A DNA stretch of 45,675 nucleotides from Victivallis vadensis (GTDB taxonomy: Bacteria > Verrucomicrobiota > Lentisphaeria > Victivallales > Victivallaceae), in contig NZ_QEKH01000036.1 in NCBI RefSeq assembly GCF_003096415.1, positions 1-45,675 on the forward strand, given 5' to 3'. The notes beneath the pieces are model-generated. The model did not search any database. It was not told where the DNA came from and saw only the letters and a program-made list of their open reading frames with translations. Below, one piece after another: positions 1 through 42,728 of this stretch. How positions within the stretch are numbered: position 1 is the first letter of the stretch; every line of letters begins with the position of its first letter. Made by a program: the position numbers and the translations under genes.

Positions 1-111
1 GCCAACGGCCGAATCGAATTGACCAGTCGCGAATTATCCGCGATTCTGTCGGGAATCAAACCGCAACGTTATTACAAAAGATATGCGAAAAAAGTGCCTG
101 AACTCACTTGA
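1..111 (+). CDS. tnpB: IS66 TnpB (Orf2) accessory protein, C-terminal fragment
   Basis: The frame is open from base 1 to a TGA at 109-111 and encodes 36 residues beginning ANGRIELTSRELSAILSGI. This resembles the end of IS66 TnpB proteins, where a basic/aromatic strand is followed by a helix of the type ELTxxQLxxLLxGI. The gene starts outside the window. It lies 30 bp before the transposase gene in the same direction, as expected in an IS66 operon. TnpB is needed for efficient transposition of IS66 elements, but its biochemical role is unclear. The fragment is short, so the call rests mainly on context. Confidence 0.6.
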   Translation, partial: ANGRIELTSRELSAILSGIKPQRYYKRYAKKVPELT

Positions 112-141
112 ATTTGAGCTCGAATCCGGTATATTTTCTGT

Positions 142-1632
142 ATGGTATTACCGGAGGTTACAACTTTAGCAGAGGCGAAAAGCGTCATCTGGGAACAAGC
201 TGAGGAAATTGAAAAACTCAGTAACGAATTGTCTTGGTTCAAGCGCCAGATGTTCGGTTCCAAGTCCGAACATTATCTTCCGACAGATGACACCCCCGCT
301 CTTTTTCCGGAAGAAACCCTTCCTGAACCAGTAAAAGAATCCCCAAACATCACCGTTGCGGAACACGACCGTCACGCGCGTCAGCCTAACGCTCTCGCAG
401 AGATTCCGGCTGATCTGCCGCGCGAAGAGCGCGTGATTGATGTCCCGGAGGATCAACGGCAGGGCATGACGCTGATCGGCTATGCCGAAAGCGAACGAAT
501 CGCCTACCGGACGGGACTGTATGTGATCCATTTCAAGCGTGCCAAATATGCAGCCCCTGATGACGCATTGCGTGGCGTTGTCACCGCCCCAGCTCCTGGA
601 GACGTGTTCGATTCTGCCAGCGGTCGAAGCCGTTACGATGTCTCTTTTGTAGCCAAGGTGGTGGCCGACAAGGTCGAAAACGCGATTCCGCTTGAACGGC
701 AGGCGCGGATGTTCGGCAACGAGGGCCTGCCTGTGGCACCTTCGACGCTCGAAGACCTTTACAAACGCACTTCCGATGCTTTATTACCTCTGTATGACCG
801 GATGACCTTGCTGATTATGCAGTGTGACATCCTTCATGTGGACGAAACCTTCATCAAGATGATGGTCAAGGGGGCGAGGAAATGCAAAAACGCATATATG
901 TGGTGTCGGTTGACCGGTGTCGGACCGCCGATGATCGCGTTTCACTTTTCGCCGTCGCGGTCTCAAGATGTTGCGGAAAGTTTGCTCGGAGATTATTCCG
1001 GAACAATTTTGCGGGATTCTTACATCGGCTACGACAAGCTCGAATGCGATGTCGCATGCTGTTGGGCACATGTCCGGCGCTATCTGGTCGTGGCCTTTGA
1101 CAACGGCTATTTGAAAGTCGAGCCGCTTCTGAAACTCGTGCGGGATCTTTATCAGATTGAGCACGATGCAAAGGAACGTGCTGAGAAAAAAGGGACGGAA
1201 ACCGCTCTCTTCCAAGAACGGAAAACGGCACGCCGAATGTCGCAAAAGCTGGTTGCCGAGTTTTTTGAGCAGGCCAAGGTGCTTCGAGACTCCGAACGGC
1301 CATCGTCGCCAGTGGCGAAAGCGGTCAACTATGCGTTGAATATCGAAGCGGAACTGAAAAAGTTCCTGAACAATCCCAAGCTCAACATCGACAACAATCC
1401 CGCTGAACGCCTCAATCGAGGTGTCGCTATCATTCGGAAAAACTGTCTGTTTGCCGGAAGCGAAACCGGCGGGCAGCGGTTGGCGATCCTTTATTCTTTT
1501 GCAGCCTCTTGCAAAGCGAACAACATCTGCTTCCGCCAATGGCTGGAAGACGTGCTTCCGCGTCTTTCCTCTACTTCGGCAAATCAAATCGAATCTCTGC
1601 TTCCCCCAAACTGGAAGTCTAACACCAAATAA
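142..1632 (+). CDS. tnpC: IS66 family transposase (TnpC, DDE)
   Basis: This is a full-length 496-residue DDE transposase that cuts and joins the ends of the IS66 element. The N-terminus is a short coiled coil ending in the IS66 hallmark WFKRQMFGSKSE (about residues 32-43). The catalytic core has D234 in HVDETF, D292 in ILRDSYIGYD followed by CCWAHVRR, and E422 in DNNPAERLNR. The C-terminal QIESLLPP tail is also typical. Length is normal for the family and the frame is intact, so the element may be active. No clear ribosome binding site precedes the ATG; it is the first ATG after tnpB. Confidence 0.93.
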   Translation: MVLPEVTTLAEAKSVIWEQAEEIEKLSNELSWFKRQMFGSKSEHYLPTDDTPALFPEETLPEPVKESPNITVAEHDRHARQPNALAEIPADLPREERVIDVPEDQRQGMTLIGYAESERIAYRTGLYVIHFKRAKYAAPDDALRGVVTAPAPGDVFDSASGRSRYDVSFVAKVVADKVENAIPLERQARMFGNEGLPVAPSTLEDLYKRTSDALLPLYDRMTLLIMQCDILHVDETFIKMMVKGARKCKNAYMWCRLTGVGPPMIAFHFSPSRSQDVAESLLGDYSGTILRDSYIGYDKLECDVACCWAHVRRYLVVAFDNGYLKVEPLLKLVRDLYQIEHDAKERAEKKGTETALFQERKTARRMSQKLVAEFFEQAKVLRDSERPSSPVAKAVNYALNIEAELKKFLNNPKLNIDNNPAERLNRGVAIIRKNCLFAGSETGGQRLAILYSFAASCKANNICFRQWLEDVLPRLSSTSANQIESLLPPNWKSNTK

Positions 1633-1699
1633 TTTTTCAATTTTTCCCTTTCAAGACACCGGAAATGCCTCAGACATGTAGCTCATTGGGCGCATACAT

Positions 1700-1757: not shown

Positions 1758-4700
1758 TCAATCAATATAATCAATTTTCCGAACCATCATCTTACCTGTT
1801 TCCGGATTACGATCGATGGTTACAATCATTTTGACTTCTCCAGTGATTTCATCATAGTAAATATTATCTTCCGGATCTGATCCAACTTCTTCGTAATCGA
1901 ATTGTCCATTCTTTGCGGGTCTAGTTTGACCTATTCCATCTTTATCAATTCGCGTAATGGGTATTCCTGCCGAATCTCCCAAGTCGCGTATGGTTTGGGC
2001 TACAATGAGCACTTTGATTGTATTCGGAAGTGATCCGCCGGCAGTCATCAAATTAATTGTTTTTCCAATTACTTCTTCTTGACTTGCATCAGTGGTAAAA
2101 CTTGGAGATGAAGCTCCATTGTTATATCCTAACTTACCAAAACCCGTCTTTAAGGTATTACCTGCGTCCTCCCAATTGATAAATTCTGTGCGCAATACAA
2201 AAGGATCCTCCTTGATAGGCTTTGTTTTCAAGGGATTATCGCTGACTGTATCAATACGGTTGCCGGAAGTCACATCAGCAAAGTTACTGATTGACTGTCC
2301 TAACGAGAGATTCAAAAATAATGCCTTAGCGATATCATCATCATTGGCGGTATAACCACTATAATGCTGAGGAAGCATGTTAAGATCAACTTTACCTAAA
2401 GCACGAATGCCAGTTGTCATTTTTATTTGCTCTAAAATTCCACCATCTCCGGCCTGATAAGAAGTCCCGGATTTAGTCCAAGCGTTGTGATTAGGTTCCA
2501 TATCCATGGGGGTAATGTCAGAGGAAGAAGCATTAGGGCTACCGGCATGCTTGAGATTAATTGTTTCCCAAGCCGCACCACGATGAATTACACCGATTTC
2601 CCATGGGCTTTTCATTGGAGCATTACGAATATACGCAGTGGAGAGATGACCATTAGCTGGATCATCAACTGTTTCCTGATCTGCATTGGGCGATTTACCT
2701 CGTGGATCAGCCTCTGTTTCCCTATTTACAGTTCCTTTATAACTGTCTGGAGTTCCACTTGTTTCAACATCCATTACATCTGCCCATTTGTTAGTCGCTT
2801 CATCAAAACCTTTTATTGAAGGATCCGAAACAGACCAATCATCTTCGTTTAGATTTTGGCGTGGGTCTTGTCCGCGCATTCCGCCAAACAGGAATTTATA
2901 TGAATTCTTTGTGTCATCAAAAGTAATAGAAGCTCCTGTCTGCTCCAGCTTCTTTGTTAATTGAGGTTTGACATAATCAAGACCAATCCGTTCGGTCGTT
3001 GCCCCTCCTAAATGTTTATAATCAGCCATTAAAACCATACGACCATTTTGAATGCTGAAATCAGTCAGTTCAACTTCCTTGATCTCGATATCGGATTCCG
3101 AGCTTACTAATTCTACTGCACTCGGATATTTTTCCTTTACCATGGCTAATGTCAGTTCAGGTATTACTGGGGTGGGGGTGCCTGCATCATCAGTTACTGA
3201 AGTATAGGAGGTCTTAAAAAAAGCTCCCGTTCCAGTTTTAAAAGCATACCCATCAGTAAAATCTGCTGCAGAAAAAGAAATTGATTGAGAAGAATTGACC
3301 TCTGTTATGTCATTGGCTGTTTCATTTTTTTCCCATTTCTTGGAAAACTCGACTTTACCATATGTAGCTAGATCAATTTCCATGGGGGTAGATACGGTAT
3401 TATTTGTAGCCGGGTTACCTGCTTCTGTCCGATAAGTGAAATTATTGTAAGCAACCTTGGTAATCTTACCTTTTAATTCAATTCCCCGGAGTGTATGATA
3501 GAAATCAAAATTACTTAAATCATCTGAAATTCCATCATAAATATTAATTAATTTCACTGCGGGTGTTATTTCCAAATCAAATTTGAAACTGCGATCTGTT
3601 TTGTTAACTGCAATACCCGCAGTCCCACTATCATGGCTGATTTGAGATGAAAAACCGATTTCGTAGATGTATGGAGTTTTTTCATTTCCGGTATAATCAG
3701 GCTCTTTGGTCAACCAGTCTTTGGCGGAGATATTGGATGTTGGGATATAATCAGCATCACAATAGTCGTTAAAGTTAGCTGCAATTTGGCGACGGCGATT
3801 CTCCAAACCGGAAAGTCCGTTGATGCCAGTTGTTGCAAATGTTCCTTCATCATCTGCAATTCTTCTTAGAAACGGTAAACCTGAATTAAAGGGAGTACGA
3901 GTATCCGTCTCATTGAAAGGACGGCTGTCATGGGTCAAAGCATCAATTGCACTAGGAGCATTTGGGGTAATTGTTGTATCAGATATGCTGCTCTTGAAAC
4001 GATCATACCAATCATCTGGGGTATAGTTTTCAGCCTCAAAAGGCTTCCAAGAGATCAGAGGAAAACGATGAAAATAGGTAGTATCATCCCCATTTCTCTT
4101 ATAATAAATATAAGCCTCTTTTACGCTGGGATCAGTTCCTTCTGTAAACCAACGCTCGATCCACGCCCTATGTTTCTTACCAGTTTCGGTGGTATCATTA
4201 AAGTCGAAGTTCCCGTCATAGGGACCATATAGTTCATCATAGGTTTGAGGAATATATGTCCCATCATTAATTGTACTCCAACCTTGCAAGATTGTGGTTT
4301 TATCAATATATAATTCATCGATTTCTTTGCCGATACGATCGTTCCAAGGAACTCGACCACTATTAGCAACAAAGCCTCCCAAGACTGATTTTAGATTGAT
4401 ACGGCTGGATGAGGTTGATGGCAAAACCTGATAGGCAACACGACCAATAATTTTACGATCAGTATCGCTCTTATCGCCGGAATCATAAAAATATGTCCAT
4501 ACGGCCTTGCTATTCGAGCCTTTATAATCTAAATCATTATTCAGATAATTTAACTTGGAATTATCACCTGTCAATTGATCATTTGTAGTTTCACCTGAAT
4601 CTGAATTTAAGGTCTTAACTTTGTCATAGCTATAAATTGCAGTAAATTCAGTTGGCCAAAACTGTTTACTGAGATCTGTTTGGTGTTCAGCTTGGTATTG

Positions 4701-4913
4701 GTACAACATCAAAGAGATTGCAACTCTATTAATTGCTGATTGAGCCAACATCTTGGCTTGGCTTCTGGTACTATTATTGAAAGCGACCTTGCGCGCTAAA
4801 AGGGCATTACTGACAAATGCCAGTCCCAAGATTAGCAATAAAGATAAAATTCCGAGTGCAAATAATAAAGCAACGCCATGCCGCTTATTTTGTATTTTTT
4901 TTCCCTTTTTCAT
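1758..4913 (-). CDS. GspK/PilX-like giant pseudopilin, Verru_Chthon cassette protein A-like
   Basis: This 1051-residue protein starts with a short basic segment and RHG before VALLFALGILSLLLILGLAF, a pilin-type membrane helix (about residues 13-33). It has a glycine at -1 and no Glu5, as in GspK minor pseudopilins. The rest is a very long extracytoplasmic region rich in Asn, Asp, Thr and Ser, with no catalytic motif I recognise. GspK proteins are usually about 300 residues, so this is greatly enlarged. Its size and three smaller pilin-like partners match the Verru_Chthon cassette family A description (proteins over 1000 residues). It is the last gene of the operon, 28 bp after its neighbour. 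It is visibly AT-rich compared with genes beyond 7.4 kb. Function unknown; a tip or cargo role in a type II secretion- or pilus-like fibre is inference. Confidence 0.72.
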   Translation of the reverse strand: MKKGKKIQNKRHGVALLFALGILSLLLILGLAFVSNALLARKVAFNNSTRSQAKMLAQSAINRVAISLMLYQYQAEHQTDLSKQFWPTEFTAIYSYDKVKTLNSDSGETTNDQLTGDNSKLNYLNNDLDYKGSNSKAVWTYFYDSGDKSDTDRKIIGRVAYQVLPSTSSSRINLKSVLGGFVANSGRVPWNDRIGKEIDELYIDKTTILQGWSTINDGTYIPQTYDELYGPYDGNFDFNDTTETGKKHRAWIERWFTEGTDPSVKEAYIYYKRNGDDTTYFHRFPLISWKPFEAENYTPDDWYDRFKSSISDTTITPNAPSAIDALTHDSRPFNETDTRTPFNSGLPFLRRIADDEGTFATTGINGLSGLENRRRQIAANFNDYCDADYIPTSNISAKDWLTKEPDYTGNEKTPYIYEIGFSSQISHDSGTAGIAVNKTDRSFKFDLEITPAVKLINIYDGISDDLSNFDFYHTLRGIELKGKITKVAYNNFTYRTEAGNPATNNTVSTPMEIDLATYGKVEFSKKWEKNETANDITEVNSSQSISFSAADFTDGYAFKTGTGAFFKTSYTSVTDDAGTPTPVIPELTLAMVKEKYPSAVELVSSESDIEIKEVELTDFSIQNGRMVLMADYKHLGGATTERIGLDYVKPQLTKKLEQTGASITFDDTKNSYKFLFGGMRGQDPRQNLNEDDWSVSDPSIKGFDEATNKWADVMDVETSGTPDSYKGTVNRETEADPRGKSPNADQETVDDPANGHLSTAYIRNAPMKSPWEIGVIHRGAAWETINLKHAGSPNASSSDITPMDMEPNHNAWTKSGTSYQAGDGGILEQIKMTTGIRALGKVDLNMLPQHYSGYTANDDDIAKALFLNLSLGQSISNFADVTSGNRIDTVSDNPLKTKPIKEDPFVLRTEFINWEDAGNTLKTGFGKLGYNNGASSPSFTTDASQEEVIGKTINLMTAGGSLPNTIKVLIVAQTIRDLGDSAGIPITRIDKDGIGQTRPAKNGQFDYEEVGSDPEDNIYYDEITGEVKMIVTIDRNPETGKMMVRKIDYID

Positions 4914-4941
4914 ATAAAATCTCCACGCTGTATTTATTATC

Positions 4942-5751
4942 TTATAAAGTTTCAGCCCAACGACCTCCTAAAAAAACAGCACGGGTAAAGGTACGTTCAT
5001 GCTGTTGTCTGAAAGCATCCTGTTGAGCAGTGGGTAAATTACTCCATGTATCAAAATTCTTTTTATCCATCAATGATAACTGTATTTCAATTAAATATGG
5101 GGGTTTCCTATCATATTTATTGCCAGAGGGAGCAATAATTTCACTTCCCCCTCCTGTCGTCATTCTTGCAAAGGGAATGAAGCGCAGACCTGTAACATTA
5201 TTTAAGACAATTGCAGAATTATCGTCTTGAGTGGTTGATACCTTATTGTCAAGTTTGGTAACAAGCAGATTCTTGGCAACTTCATAAGAAGTAACAGCTC
5301 CTTCGCCATAAGGAGGGAAGAAATAACTATATGCTGTTGGACCTGAATCATCAGTACCATTATCTGCAAAGATTGCCATTACGAGTTTCTCGTTATGCGT
5401 TCCTGTGCGTTGGAAAGAAATAAAACGAATATCTTTTGTCCCTGGAAGATTATCCATTTTTGATTGGGCTGCAAAGTATATTTTAGAATTATCGGTATTG
5501 GGATTTTCAATGATAAAAGGAGTTCCGCCTGCAGAATAATAGGTGGATTGAAGTAATGTAGACATTAAGTCCATGGCAACACGTGCATCTGCATAAAGAT
5601 TATTTTTTTCTTCCATTCCTGTCCACATTTTTTGTGCACCGGAAAAAAATTGTAGCATCAGCACCAATAATATGCTGAATACAGACATTGCAACCAGCAG
5701 TTCAACTAGTGTAAAAATATGAAATATTTGTTTCTTGTTCTGGTATTTCAT
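4942..5751 (-). CDS. GspJ-like minor pseudopilin, Verru_Chthon cassette protein C-like
   Basis: This 269-residue protein begins with a basic leader and then FTLVELLVAMSVFSILLVLMLQF (about residues 13-35), a class III prepilin signal with Glu at +5. The residue before the cleavage site is Ile instead of Gly. Next comes a helix with KMWTGMEEKNNLYADARVAMDLM, which resembles GspJ minor pseudopilins. The C-terminal domain is probably globular and exposed outside the membrane. It lies between the PilV/GspI-like and GspK-like genes, 14 and 28 bp from them, so it is probably co-transcribed. The gene is AT-rich like its operon partners. Role in a secretion pseudopilus is inferred from the family. Confidence 0.75.
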   Translation of the reverse strand: MKYQNKKQIFHIFTLVELLVAMSVFSILLVLMLQFFSGAQKMWTGMEEKNNLYADARVAMDLMSTLLQSTYYSAGGTPFIIENPNTDNSKIYFAAQSKMDNLPGTKDIRFISFQRTGTHNEKLVMAIFADNGTDDSGPTAYSYFFPPYGEGAVTSYEVAKNLLVTKLDNKVSTTQDDNSAIVLNNVTGLRFIPFARMTTGGGSEIIAPSGNKYDRKPPYLIEIQLSLMDKKNFDTWSNLPTAQQDAFRQQHERTFTRAVFLGGRWAETL

Positions 5752-5765
5752 AGCAGGCCTTTGTA

Positions 5766-6455
5766 TTATTTGGCTTCATAAGATTCATTAAATAATTCGA
5801 AGCGAAATATTCTTTTCTCACGGTTTTCATATGGAACTTCGGCAGGCCAACTTAATTCAATACAGAAAGCCTTGGCGTAATCTCCCAGATTAAGGCGACT
5901 TGCATCAGCAGCAGTTAATTCCTGATACATTGTTGTTGCATAAGGATCAGGATAAAAGAGATCAAAGTCTTGATCCAGCCAAACTTTTATGATAGTGGAA
6001 AAATCTGCAATATCTGTTCCGTCGGGCAATCGTGTTAATTGCTGAAAGAGAAAAATCCCGTTAACATTGGGTTTGTTTAATCTTAGTAAGCGGGTTGCAC
6101 CTGTAGAGGAGCTGGAATTCAATGATGTCCAATCAGAAAGATTTAAACTATTATTTGCAACCTTGGCATCAGTATCATTGTTGATATCGACCAAGCTGGT
6201 TTTCATATGTTGTGTGAAAAATTTGTCTGCTGAAGCATTTTGCTGGTGCAAGTACCATTCAGAAGAGCAACCTGCACGTAGATGACTCATTACATATTCT
6301 GCGATATCTGCAAGATTATTATCTGCAATTGCCGACTTATTGGCATTTACTCCAACTGGAAATAGTACAAGTATACTGGATAAGCCAATTGCAATGATTG
6401 CCATTGCCAAGGCTATTTCAACCATGTTGAAAAACTTTTTTTGTATCTTTTTCAT
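5766..6455 (-). CDS. GspI/PilV-like minor pseudopilin, Verru_Chthon cassette protein B-like
   Basis: This 229-residue protein opens with MKKIQKKFFNMVEIALAMAIIAIG, a prepilin-type hydrophobic helix (about residues 9-30) with Glu at +5 if cleavage falls before the second Phe. The usual Gly at -1 is missing. The helix is followed by SSILVLFPVGVNANKSAIADNN, which is like PilV/GspI proteins, where this helix starts a pilin stalk. The C-terminal half ends with an R-F-x-F-E-L-F strand. It sits 14 bp from both neighbours in the four-gene operon. The family assignment comes from the N-terminus and from gene order; the exposed domain is unrecognised. Confidence 0.72.
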   Translation of the reverse strand: MKKIQKKFFNMVEIALAMAIIAIGLSSILVLFPVGVNANKSAIADNNLADIAEYVMSHLRAGCSSEWYLHQQNASADKFFTQHMKTSLVDINNDTDAKVANNSLNLSDWTSLNSSSSTGATRLLRLNKPNVNGIFLFQQLTRLPDGTDIADFSTIIKVWLDQDFDLFYPDPYATTMYQELTAADASRLNLGDYAKAFCIELSWPAEVPYENREKRIFRFELFNESYEAK

Positions 6456-6469
6456 CTGAAATTATACCA

Positions 6470-7195
6470 CTAAGGTTTATAATAGTTGACACGACCTGTA
6501 AAACGATTTATTTCCAAAACTAAAAAGTTAGTGGGACCAGTCGTATCACGACTGGGAAATACAAAGTTGTTTCCATTGGGAATGGCTTCTGCTATAGCCA
6601 AGTAAAGATTCTCATCATGTCTGATTCCGCCATAAGGAGAAAAGATAACAGCGCAATAAGTACGAGTATCGCTTGCTGAATCTTGGTAATTCGTAATGGT
6701 ATGAAGCAAAGGGTTGGTTCCACCAGCCGTGATAAGCCTATGCGTGATAGGATATGGAGAATTACCTAAGTCTAAACCTTGGCCTTCTACGAAATTTCCA
6801 TAGTCGTTTTTGGTAGCTTCATCTGCTACGGCCAGCAAGTGAGCCCCCGGAACAGGTATTCGCCACTCATAATCCGGCACCCAGCGAATAAATTGCCAAC
6901 TCGTTCCTGTCGAATCCTTTTTAACATACGCCATTCGAGAGCCGCCCAAGTTATACTGGGCTTCCTGCCCTGTCCAACCACTAGGCAAGATAACTGCTAC
7001 GTAACGTCGCGCAGTAATAGCATGTGACTGGGCTTGCTCTAATGCTAATTTTAAATTAGAGGCCATCTGATCGACTTGGTTGCCGCTGATCATCCGTTTG
7101 AAGGCGGGGAGCATCAGGGTCATCAGGACGCCCATTAAGAGCATCACGACCAACAGCTCAATTAAGGTAAAATTTCGTTTTGTTCGTTTGTTCAT
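6470..7195 (-). CDS. GspH-like pseudopilin, Verru_Chthon cassette protein D-like
   Basis: First gene of the operon, 241 residues. It has a short basic leader MNKRTKRN, then [24 protein letters not shown], a canonical type IV pilin/pseudopilin helix with Glu5 and Asn rather than Gly at -1. The segment after it, ASNLKLALEQAQSHAITARR, is typical of GspH/FimT minor pseudopilins. The C-terminal half has a predicted beta-rich domain ending in a FTGRVNYYKP strand. The gene has a good promoter at 7259-7287 but no obvious ribosome binding site. It probably forms part of a pseudopilus with the next three genes; the substrate is unknown. Confidence 0.75.
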   Translation of the reverse strand: MNKRTKRNFTLIELLVVMLLMGVLMTLMLPAFKRMISGNQVDQMASNLKLALEQAQSHAITARRYVAVILPSGWTGQEAQYNLGGSRMAYVKKDSTGTSWQFIRWVPDYEWRIPVPGAHLLAVADEATKNDYGNFVEGQGLDLGNSPYPITHRLITAGGTNPLLHTITNYQDSASDTRTYCAVIFSPYGGIRHDENLYLAIAEAIPNGNNFVFPSRDTTGPTNFLVLEINRFTGRVNYYKP

Positions 7196-7258: not shown

Positions 7259-7287
7259 ACTATAGGAGGCGCATTCCCATTTTTCAA
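7259..7287 (-). promoter_or_regulatory. Promoter of the pseudopilin cassette
   Basis: On the minus strand, TTGAAA (7287-7282), a 17-bp spacer and TATAGT (7264-7259) form a near-consensus sigma70 promoter. The predicted leader to the ATG at 7195 is about 55 nt. Confidence 0.65.
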
Positions 7288-7467: not shown

Positions 7468-8091
7468 ATGAGCGACAAATTTGCCAGTGAAATCGATTTT
7501 CTCAGCTATGCCATGGGCATGAATATGGGAGAATACCTGACCCGCACTCCCATCGAAGTCAATACCCAGGCGGCGCTGGACGGCGTCCGCGACTTCCTCG
7601 CCAAGTCCCCGAAGCTCTCTCAGGAGGAGTATGTGAAGGCGATGCAGGTGTTGCAGGCGAAGATGCAGGCCGCCGTCCAGAAGCAGGTCGACGGCCTCGC
7701 CGCCGCCAACATCGAGGCCGAAAAGAAGTTCATGGCCGAAAACGGCGCCCGCGAAGGCGTGAAAACCACCGCCAGCGGCCTCCAGTACGAGGTGATCGCC
7801 GAAGGCAAGGGCGACAAGCCGCTCGCCCACAGCAAGGTGCGCGTCCATTACACCGGGACGCTGCTCGACGGCACCGAGTTCGACAGCTCCGTCCGCCGCG
7901 GTGAACCGGCCGAATTCGGCGTGAATCAGGTGATCGCCGGCTGGACCGAGGCGCTTCAGCTGATGTCCCCCGGCAGCAAGTACCGGCTCTTCATCCCCGC
8001 CAGGCTCGGTTACGGCGAACACGGCGCCGGACAGGCGATTCCGCCGAATGCCGCGCTGATCTTCGACGTCGAATTGCTCGACATCCTGTAA
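7468..8091 (+). CDS. fklB: FKBP-type peptidyl-prolyl cis-trans isomerase, FklB/Mip-like
   Basis: This 207-residue protein catalyses cis-trans isomerisation of prolyl bonds and helps protein folding. Residues 1 to about 100 form the helical dimerisation region of FklB/Mip proteins (FLSYAMGMNMG and a long helix with many Lys and Gln). The FKBP domain is at about 108-207, with SGLQYEVI, VRVHYTGTLLDGTEFDSS, GEPAEFGVNQVIAGWTEAL and GYGEHGAGQAIPPNAALIFDVELL. These include the conserved aromatic pocket residues. There is no signal peptide, so it is probably cytoplasmic. AAGGAG at 7457-7462 fixes the ATG. It is a single gene with its own terminator and is GC-rich, unlike the cassette upstream. Confidence 0.93.
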   Translation: MSDKFASEIDFLSYAMGMNMGEYLTRTPIEVNTQAALDGVRDFLAKSPKLSQEEYVKAMQVLQAKMQAAVQKQVDGLAAANIEAEKKFMAENGAREGVKTTASGLQYEVIAEGKGDKPLAHSKVRVHYTGTLLDGTEFDSSVRRGEPAEFGVNQVIAGWTEALQLMSPGSKYRLFIPARLGYGEHGAGQAIPPNAALIFDVELLDIL

Positions 8092-16081: not shown

Positions 16082-16855
16082 ATGAGTGTACATGCAAAAT
16101 CGAGAATGCAGATCAGCTTACTATTCACATTGATTGAATTGCTTGTTGTAATTGCAATTATCGCGATATTGGCAGCCATGTTGCTGCCTGCACTGAACAA
16201 GGCTCGTGAAAAAGCACGGGCGACTTCCTGTGTCAGCAATTTGAAACAGGTCATTTCCGGCGCGCTGATGTATGGGAACGATAATGGGGATTTTATTCCA
16301 ACCAGTGTTTTGACTGAAAATGGAATGTGGTGCAATTGGCTTTGTAACGGTGATGCGCCGGGAGGTCCCTGGAATAACGACTGGTGGTTGACCAAAGGGC
16401 ATGGAAGTTATATTGGTTGGAATGTAGTCAGATGTCCTGGTTCGACCAAACTCAATAATGACCTTGAGCAAAATGTTTACGGGGCCGTTGACTGGAGCGA
16501 TTCTAATGTGCCTGACGAAGTAATGGCACGTATGGGGCGGTTCGCTTGCCGGATAGGGATTGCCACACAGGGGGAATTTGCCTCCTTGACCAAAATGAAG
16601 TCAGTATCGGCATTGCCGCTTTATGCGGATACTCGTTTGCTGGATTCTCCTGGTGATCAGAGAAGGGCTTACAGATTCCGTTTTCATAACTATTGGAGTT
16701 GGCAGGCTGGACTTTTTTATGAAGCCCATCAGGGCCGGGGGAACCTTGCTTTTGCCGATGGGCATGTGAAGGCTATGTCGGGTAAAGATTTGCAGTCGTC
16801 GCCAATTGAAGCTTCTCAATGGTTTAATAGCAATGGAGCACGGGAAGTGCATTGA
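16082..16855 (+). CDS. H-X9-DG pseudopilin paired with a secreted glycosidase
   Basis: This 257-residue protein has an N-terminal leader of 14 residues and then [20 protein letters not shown], a prepilin-type helix with Glu5. The residue before the cleavage site is Leu, not Gly. After the helix comes the conserved [20 protein letters not shown] stalk. The C-terminal domain ends with H216, nine residues, D226-G227 ([13 protein letters not shown]), the H-X9-DG motif of prepilin-associated proteins common in Planctomycetes and Lentisphaerae. AGAAGGAAG precedes the ATG. The GH50-like gene starts 31 bp downstream, so the two are probably co-transcribed. A role in exporting or displaying that enzyme is inference. 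Confidence 0.85.
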
Positions 16856-42032: not shown

Positions 42033-42728
42033 ATGAAAACAAGAAAATTTACTTTAATTGAGTTGCTCGTCGTGATCGCGATTATTGCGATTCTGGCCGG
42101 TATGCTGCTTCCGGCGCTGAACAAGGCGCGCCAGAAAGCGCGCGGAACCACTTGCATCAGCAATCTCAAACAGATGATGCTTTATACGCAGCAGTATCTC
42201 GACAGTTACAACGGCATGATCACTTGCGAGGGGGACTGGGAACAATGGGCGGGAGCTCTGTTCAAAGCCGGTTTGGTCGGACGCGGCGACTGGAAGGCGC
42301 TCAATTGCCCCGATGTCAACTTCTCTGCGGGAAACCTTGCTGGAGGAGTGGAAGACTGGAAGATCAATATGTTCGCCTATCCCGCTAATTATTTGGGCGC
42401 GGTCAAGATCAATGGAACATATTATGGCGAGTCGTCGGCCAGCCCCTACCGGATTATTCGCGATGCAAGCCATTCCGCGATTAATTTCAAGCCGATAAAG
42501 CAGCCGTCGAACTTCCTGTTTCTTGCCGACGGGCGAAATGATCAGGGAGAGCCTTGGGCGAGACTTTATCTGAAGACTGTCTGCGGCTGGGCAAGCGCTC
42601 CGTGGCGCGGACATAGCAGTACGGGGTTCTCCGCCGCCTGGGGAGACGGTCATGCATCGATGGCGAACGAGGGGAAATTGGAAGAGACCACCTGCCCGAA
42701 AGAAGATATCGCCTGGGCTGCCGAATGA
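42033..42728 (+). CDS. H-X9-DG-type pseudopilin paired with a secreted glycosidase
   Basis: This 231-residue protein has the shortest leader (MKTRK), then [20 protein letters not shown] with Glu5 and Lys rather than Gly at -1. The stalk [20 protein letters not shown] is nearly identical to that of the pilin at 16082. The C-terminal motif is H194, ten residues, D205-G206 ([14 protein letters not shown]), one residue longer than the usual X9. AAAGGAAAG lies before the ATG. The secreted glycosidase gene starts 26 bp downstream in the same direction. Role in export or display of that enzyme is inference. Confidence 0.87.

Follow-up and report, generated by a model that had tools for sequence, protein, structure and literature searches.

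The subject of this study is a cassette of four minor pilin or pseudopilin genes, here called H, V, J and K, in Victivallis vadensis, a member of the order Victivallales. The window analyzed was the whole of contig NZ_QEKH01000036.1 (45,675 nucleotides; RefSeq assembly GCF_003096415.1), which is contig C36 of a 5.2-Mb draft genome (G000). The compared relatives are designated G001 and onward; their genes were called with an open reading frame (ORF) picker, and the cassettes of several of them are cut by contig ends.

Anatomy and composition of the cassette

The four genes are consecutive minus-strand ORFs with spacers of 14, 14, and 28 bases between them (Table 1). The initial annotation had described an AT-rich four-gene operon beside GC-rich genes beginning at 7.4 kb, and the base composition bore this out. 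The GC contents of H, V, J, and K are 0.446, 0.372, 0.370, and 0.396, and their GC contents at third codon positions (GC3) are 0.426, 0.309, 0.278, and 0.315, as against 0.81–0.85 in the six neighboring genes measured between 7.4 and 14.7 kb. For the cassette as a whole GC3 is 0.32, compared with a flank median of 0.80 and 0.83 for rpoB, a composition unlike that of the host. At four-fold sites the GC content is 0.32, whereas the intergenic DNA (52 spacers) has 0.51. The proteins are shifted as well: FYMINK residues make up 30.7% of the cassette proteins, versus 25.7–27.1% in relatives G001 to G003, a level resembling the 30.0–32.5% found in the AT-rich relatives G017, G030, and G123. In the stretches of the genome that were examined, GC3 was below 0.43 in 3 of 108 other genes, all three on contig C68. 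That contig ends in an IS66 copy, and one of its AT-rich genes, at locus L139, resembles by eye a restriction subunit; on contig C31 a gene that by eye is recombinase-like (L287, 12310–13866) has a GC3 of 0.36.

Table 1. Features at the cassette locus, in window coordinates
Feature	Position	Strand	Basis
IS66 element, cut by contig start; transposase 142–1632; terminal repeat 1675–1697	1–1697	+	Pfam, NCBIfam, shared ends
Intrinsic terminator of cassette, 18-pair hairpin then U run	1701–1740	−	Folding compared with shuffles
K, giant GspK-like putative tip subunit, 1051 aa	1758–4913	−	T2SS_GspK at N-terminus, structure match 5vtm_X
K insert (about residues 412–660), predicted beta-sandwich domain in GspK-like core	2934–3680	−	AlphaFold2 model, fold matches
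J, GspJ/PilW-like minor pseudopilin, 269 aa	4942–5751	−	TIGR02599, gspJ
V, PilV/GspI-like minor pilin, 229 aa	5766–6455	−	TIGR02523, TIGR02598
H, GspH/FimT-like minor pseudopilin, 241 aa	6470–7195	−	TIGR02596, gspH, Pfam N_methyl
Candidate sigma-70-type promoter, 10/12 match, not above chance	7259–7287	−	Consensus scan
FKBP-type peptidyl-prolyl isomerase, conserved divergent neighbor marking the ancestral locus	7468–8091	+	Pfam FKBP_C, E 5e-30

The operon had also been credited with its own promoter and terminator. The terminator is clear: its hairpin has a folding energy of −32.1 kcal/mol (z −6.8), and none of 200 shuffled sequences was equally stable, although a simple consensus scan did not list it. 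The promoter fared less well, because the region contains 19 promoter-like sites and shuffled sequences contain 16.1 (standard deviation 4.0). The transposable element reported beside the operon was confirmed by a transposase match to Pfam DDE_Tnp_IS66 (E 5.8e-70) that also exceeded the NCBIfam cut-off. Its end was placed at about 1697, the point at which three copies cease to agree. Two other contigs stop at the same IS66 end, with one mismatch just beyond it, and the end lies 3 bases from the terminator stem. Because the element ends outside the cassette, has the same end at two further contig termini, and differs in GC3 (0.577) from the cassette, we conclude that IS66 is a bystander. None of the cassette neighbors in the window is a motor, secretin, or major pseudopilin gene of a type II secretion system (T2SS). 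No PilY1-like gene was seen adjoining the cassette, where the operon stops after K at the terminator; no search with a PilY1 model was made.

Family resemblance of the four proteins and predicted structure of K

Prepilin-like N-termini were read directly from the sequences of all four proteins, and all four had N-terminal NCBIfam matches. In the Pfam scan N_methyl was above its cut-off in H, below it in J, and absent from V and K, and no other Pfam family exceeded its cut-off in any of the four. None of them reached the NCBIfam cut-off for a named minor pilin. Among the matches below cut-off, H resembled TIGR02596 (Verru_Chthon D, E 1.8e-11) and gspH (E 8.2e-11); V resembled TIGR02523 (PilV, E 5.5e-6) and TIGR02598 (Verru_Chthon B, E 5.9e-5); and J resembled TIGR02599 best (Verru_Chthon C, E 8.7e-12), with gspJ at E 0.0064. 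The match of K to NCBIfam T2SS_GspK, also below cut-off, was confined to the N-terminus (residues 12–104, E 2.5e-5).

The cassette had been likened to the Verru_Chthon cassettes of the Verrucomicrobia. This resemblance is real, with linked proteins of the A, B, C, and D kinds (TIGR02600, TIGR02598, TIGR02599, and TIGR02596) and a giant A, which at 1,296 model positions is large like K; but it remains below every curated cut-off. The scores and cut-offs were 44.5 and 70 bits for H, 23.3 and 51.4 for V, and 44.9 and 256.5 for J. K gave no hmmscan match to Verru_Chthon A at E 1 and reached 21.6 of 332.3 bits in a six-frame search. Among 15 relatives of K examined at E ≤0.01, 12 matched GspK and 9 matched Verru_Chthon A. 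Of 145 genomes from the whole phylum, 78 had at least an N-terminal match to Verru_Chthon A (E ≤0.001), and two, G181 and G190, exceeded the cut-off. True Verru_Chthon members are multi-copy, with four or more sites in these two genomes, whereas the cassette of V. vadensis is single-copy. The term Verru_Chthon was not found in the literature searched, and as far as the searches show, the giant-K cassette is new as a described variant.

At 1051 residues, K had been called far larger than a normal GspK. That holds against the canonical protein, which in this same genome lies in a 374-aa ORF on contig C4, but not against its own kin: in 49 relatives with full coverage (50 examined), the K reading frames ranged from 862 to 1,331 residues. 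Because a large K is normal among the relatives, its size is a trait of the lineage. Mature K begins after Gly12 (KRHG/VALLFALGIL) and has no Glu at mature position 5. Canonical GspK has no Glu at this position.

Size and alignment data for K came from 50 of 78 loci, of which 46 entered the structure alignment. An AlphaFold2 model of K built with 47 sequences had a pLDDT of 79.9 and a pTM of 0.81. The top VIA-align row for this model was 5vtm_X, from the XcpVWX tip complex (Z 6.3, root-mean-square deviation 3.8). The match covered 173 of 259 residues and spanned K residues 50–1051, and residues 412–660 matched immunoglobulin (Ig)-like domains of glycoside hydrolase family 2 (GH2) enzymes with Z up to 6.1. 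The model suggests a GspK/XcpX-like core carrying an inserted beta-sandwich domain. Two results weigh against that assignment: the 5vtm_X match was tied with the unrelated beta-galactosidase 3bga_A (Z 6.1), and a plain Foldseek search of the model gave no match at E ≤0.001. Because Z was below 8, the level under which VIA-align scores may reflect merely a common arrangement, and because Foldseek had no match, we regard the structural assignment as suggestive. The top Foldseek rows, toxin beta structures with probability ≤0.05, were taken as chance, as were the five matches of a K profile to the sequences of solved structures, all to ubiquitin hydrolase (E 0.46–0.60).

The residue preceding the prepilin cleavage site differed among the cassette proteins of V. 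vadensis and its relatives. It was rarely Gly in H (1 of 37), V (3 of 41), and J (3 of 42), and it was Gly in 43 of 48 K proteins; among other V. vadensis pilins, 5 of 29 sampled rows (loci L071–L100) had Gly there. The genome has a single Peptidase_A24 match, so that a lone enzyme would need to tolerate many different residues at this position.

Conservation of the cassette and its place among pilus systems

Matches to K were present in 56 of the 61 genomes, with a single one in V. vadensis, and J had a match in 114 of the 137 genomes of the order, again including V. vadensis. The gene order H-V-J-K recurs across the order among the matches listed in the relatives examined. A comparison of the locus in close relatives, proposed in the initial annotation, placed the cassette next to the FKBP gene in 6 of the 7 genus genomes compared (V. 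vadensis, G001, G002, G003, G007, and G008). In the seventh, G005, the FKBP neighbor is missing, and on the other side of the cassette there is a 777-aa gene without a counterpart. The cassette is therefore ordinary in its presence and in its size; its AT-rich composition is real and unusual. Two relatives have two sets in one short contig stretch, either J-K or V-J-K (L065 in G030 and L066 in G050), which suggests tandem duplication.

The genome also encodes an ordinary T2SS. Contig C4 has ORFs for a secretin, GspE, and GspF, as well as GspG, H, I, J, and a small K recognized by reading their N-termini, and the six called genes of this operon, from secretin to I, have GC3 values of 0.77–0.85. 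On contig C13 the PilB, PilB, and PilC genes have GC3 values of 0.81–0.83. Similar AT-richness in all core pilin genes, which had been named as evidence against a foreign origin, was not what we found: the T2SS genes and PilB/PilC are GC-rich. At least 150 pilin-type N-termini in the genome exceeded the Pfam cut-off (150 of 308 candidates scored). The 30 best-scoring of these at least 150 loci were sampled for GC3; six had no motif-caught ORF, and the resulting 29 rows represent 27 distinct genes. Their GC3 values ranged from 0.51 to 0.83 with a median of 0.71, versus 0.77 for other genes at the same loci (p 0.025). The pilins of V. vadensis lean slightly toward AT, and the cassette does so far more.

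We conclude that the cassette is very probably a long-standing, vertically inherited operon that encodes a second minor pilin or pseudopilin set in the Victivallales, apart from the ordinary T2SS. It shares with the T2SS genes GspH-GspI-GspJ-GspK (XcpU-V-W-X) the gene order, the prepilin N-termini, a K without Glu5, and, in the model, a possible GspK-like core. It differs in that K is about three times longer, its GspK profile match is N-terminal only and does not extend over the alpha domain, it carries a predicted beta insert, and the cassette stands apart from the T2SS operon and is not linked to gspC-G. The shared order and the suggested GspK-like fold are consistent with a cassette that does no more than supply the tip of the ordinary T2SS, serving secretion only and having no surface-binding tip. 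We consider this unlikely, since the separate T2SS operon of V. vadensis looks complete and includes G, H, I, J, and a small K of its own, and since a GspK match of canonical size occurs in 39 of 61 relatives (counted from the list). A secretin a few kilobases from the cassette in G002 and G003 was considered as its channel and rejected, because genes resembling by eye MacA/MacB-type exporters follow it and because in V. vadensis the small-secretin/MacA/MacB-like cluster is on another contig than the cassette.

Known systems provide analogies for a role. PMC7248040 describes GspI-J-K as the complex that primes the pseudopilus and forms its cap, GspK being outermost at the tip, and equates FimU-PilV-PilW-PilX(-PilY1) with GspH-I-J-K in order and homology class. 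The cassette shares this order with the type IVa minor pilins, and V matches PilV; the large insert sits in K itself. In PMC6561018, ComZ of Thermus is described as a GspK-like pilin into which a large domain is inserted, and a role as tip receptor is proposed for it. The ComZ insert is a beta-solenoid and that of K is a predicted Ig-like beta sandwich, a comparison made by description only. By analogy with this priming and with the ComZ insert, the cassette proteins would start fiber assembly, with the insert of K displayed at the tip; the four proteins probably build the tip of a pilus-like fiber. In the inner membrane, K, V, and J would come together in a priming complex like that of GspI-J-K, which H would link to the shaft. 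From this complex would grow a pseudopilus or a type IV-like pilus, with PilB/PilC or GspE/GspF as its motor and some of the at least 150 GspG-like pilins as its building blocks. K would stay at the tip with its inserted beta domain foremost, binding whatever the fiber touches. The giant GspK is a test case for a pseudopilin becoming a receptor-bearing tip, as proposed for ComZ.

Divergence and origin of the AT-rich allele

Sequence divergence of the cassette was compared with that of other orthologs by means of reciprocal best pairs, drawn only from the genome stretches examined. Between G003 and G005 the cassette genes were the four least alike of 21 pairs (32.3–50.2%; next 67.4%). They made up four of the five lowest among 29 pairs between G002 and G003 (66.6–74.3%) and four of the five lowest among 19 pairs between V. 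vadensis and G001 (37.7–50.8%). The cassette is thus among the most divergent orthologs compared, and its sequence changes unusually fast. The rpoB proteins of G005 and G003 are 97.8% identical and those of G002 and G003 97.1%, yet the G005 cassette is as distant as those of other branches. Because of this distance from G003, G005 probably carries a replaced allele; in a reduced tree its cassette still groups with G002, G003, and G008, and a close donor and a burst of change are both possible.

The rpoB tree separates the genus from genus g15 with full support, whereas the joined cassette proteins mix the two genera, and a cassette tree that held the nine genus genomes together was rejected (approximately unbiased test, p 0.0034). 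These comparisons support an exchange of cassette alleles among genera of the family. In-place allele replacement is therefore a live form of the earlier idea that the operon had been acquired from another lineage.

The AT shift was measured in relatives as well, using complete or partial cassettes, some of which came from genomes without one or more of the four genes. In 43 of 49 other genomes the cassette had a lower GC3 than the median of its flanks; over the 49 genomes the median difference was −0.047. In the 43 other genomes with at least five flank genes and at least 600 cassette residues, the lag was significant (Wilcoxon p 2.6e-8), and it increased weakly with flank GC (Spearman −0.34, p 0.024). 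The lag of V. vadensis, −0.47, was the extreme of the 50 genomes, the next lowest being −0.26 (G014). Among 372 single flank genes of relatives, 1.1% were more than 0.2 below their neighbors in GC3 and none was more than 0.45 below.

We propose that the cassette locus evolves very fast, that its alleles are exchanged in place among related Victivallaceae, and that the V. vadensis allele would have evolved for long in a more AT-rich relative of the genus before replacing the native one. We assign this replacement a probability of roughly 45%. In its favor are the foreign-looking base and residue composition of the cassette, a GC3 deviation greater than that of any single flank gene in the relatives, the mixing of two genera in the cassette tree, and the divergent G005 allele. 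Several results weigh against it. By identity the V. vadensis cassette is nearest to G001 (H 59, V 51, J 53, and K 45%), and the core proteins (3,964 columns, 11 genomes) likewise pair V. vadensis with G001 (support 93/95). With smaller taxon sets containing fewer distant rows, the genus was not rejected (p 0.41 and p 0.069). No AT-rich donor was found among the genomes compared; rpoB GC3 is 0.64–0.85 in the nine genus genomes, none of which is AT-rich. G007 shows the same amino acid shift (FYMINK 30.3%) despite an rpoB GC3 of 0.70. No recombination boundary was found in the V. vadensis cassette. The one candidate, a GC3 step within H from 0.70 in the first 40 codons to 0.37 in the remainder, was rejected as a recombination edge because relatives share the GC-rich start of H: in 25 of them the difference averaged +0.11 and reached +0.31, although the +0.33 of V. 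vadensis is the largest of all. A rooting of the cassette in AT-rich lineages was likewise rejected, because the best matches of J beyond the genus (G136 and G044) are not especially AT-rich.

It is quite possible that the allele was instead inherited vertically and shifted in place, by drift or by selection toward AT, for instance without GC-favoring codon selection or GC-biased gene conversion. The FKBP-side locus is the same as in the genus, and the nearest relative is the sister G001; the first K tree groups V. vadensis, G001, and G006 (99/98). The mild lag is general and also one-directional, since the largest positive difference between cassette and flank was +0.037 and none of eight AT-rich genomes had a clearly GC-richer cassette. 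Against a shift in place, four-fold-site GC is far below that of the spacers, so that mutation itself would have to be strongly AT-biased if a loss of GC-favoring forces were the whole cause, and fast pilin genes elsewhere in the genome are shifted less far. The comparison of gene trees with the species tree, suggested in the initial annotation, gave a divided answer: identity points to the sister, and the position in the cassette tree changes with taxon sampling. In another taxon set V. vadensis fell outside G001, G006, and G136 (98/94), and in one set the pairing of the V. vadensis and G001 cassettes was borderline rejected (p 0.045). Shared AT-driven residues may pull V. vadensis in these trees. 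For the V. vadensis allele, the choice between exchange and a shift in place is close to even.

A broader version of replacement, which we regard as doubtful, would make the cassette an interchangeable pilus-tip module like a surface-antigen locus, in which the K insert sets binding, alleles are swapped among Victivallaceae, and the AT form came from an unsampled AT-rich relative. If tip sets were swapped in place between genera, these gut-associated bacteria would alter their pilus or secretion specificity through allele exchange, and the cassette would serve to mark which of them trade DNA with one another.

The low GC3 and the adjoining IS66 might suggest that a whole new island was brought in from outside the lineage, carried by the transposon or along with it, but this is very improbable and largely refuted by the conserved locus: the cassette is ancestral, single-copy, and present in most genomes of the order, relatives share its neighbor gene, and IS66 lies outside the terminator, differs in composition, and recurs at two further contig ends. 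Strong AT-richness with an adjoining transposon is not by itself evidence of new arrival. Of the initial suggestion of foreign acquisition or unusual selection, the arrival of a new cassette thus falls away; the AT shift, the largest of 50 genomes, stands, and an in-place allele swap remains live.

Two other pilins in the window, at 16082–16855 and 42033–42728, are GspG-like proteins of the H-X9-DG/DUF1559 type, and after each of them comes a large ORF of unknown family. The pilin at 16082–16855 has a GC3 of 0.46, lower than the sampled pilins. The cluster of a small secretin with MacA/MacB exporter-like genes is conserved (loci L285, L286, L287, L288, and L289).

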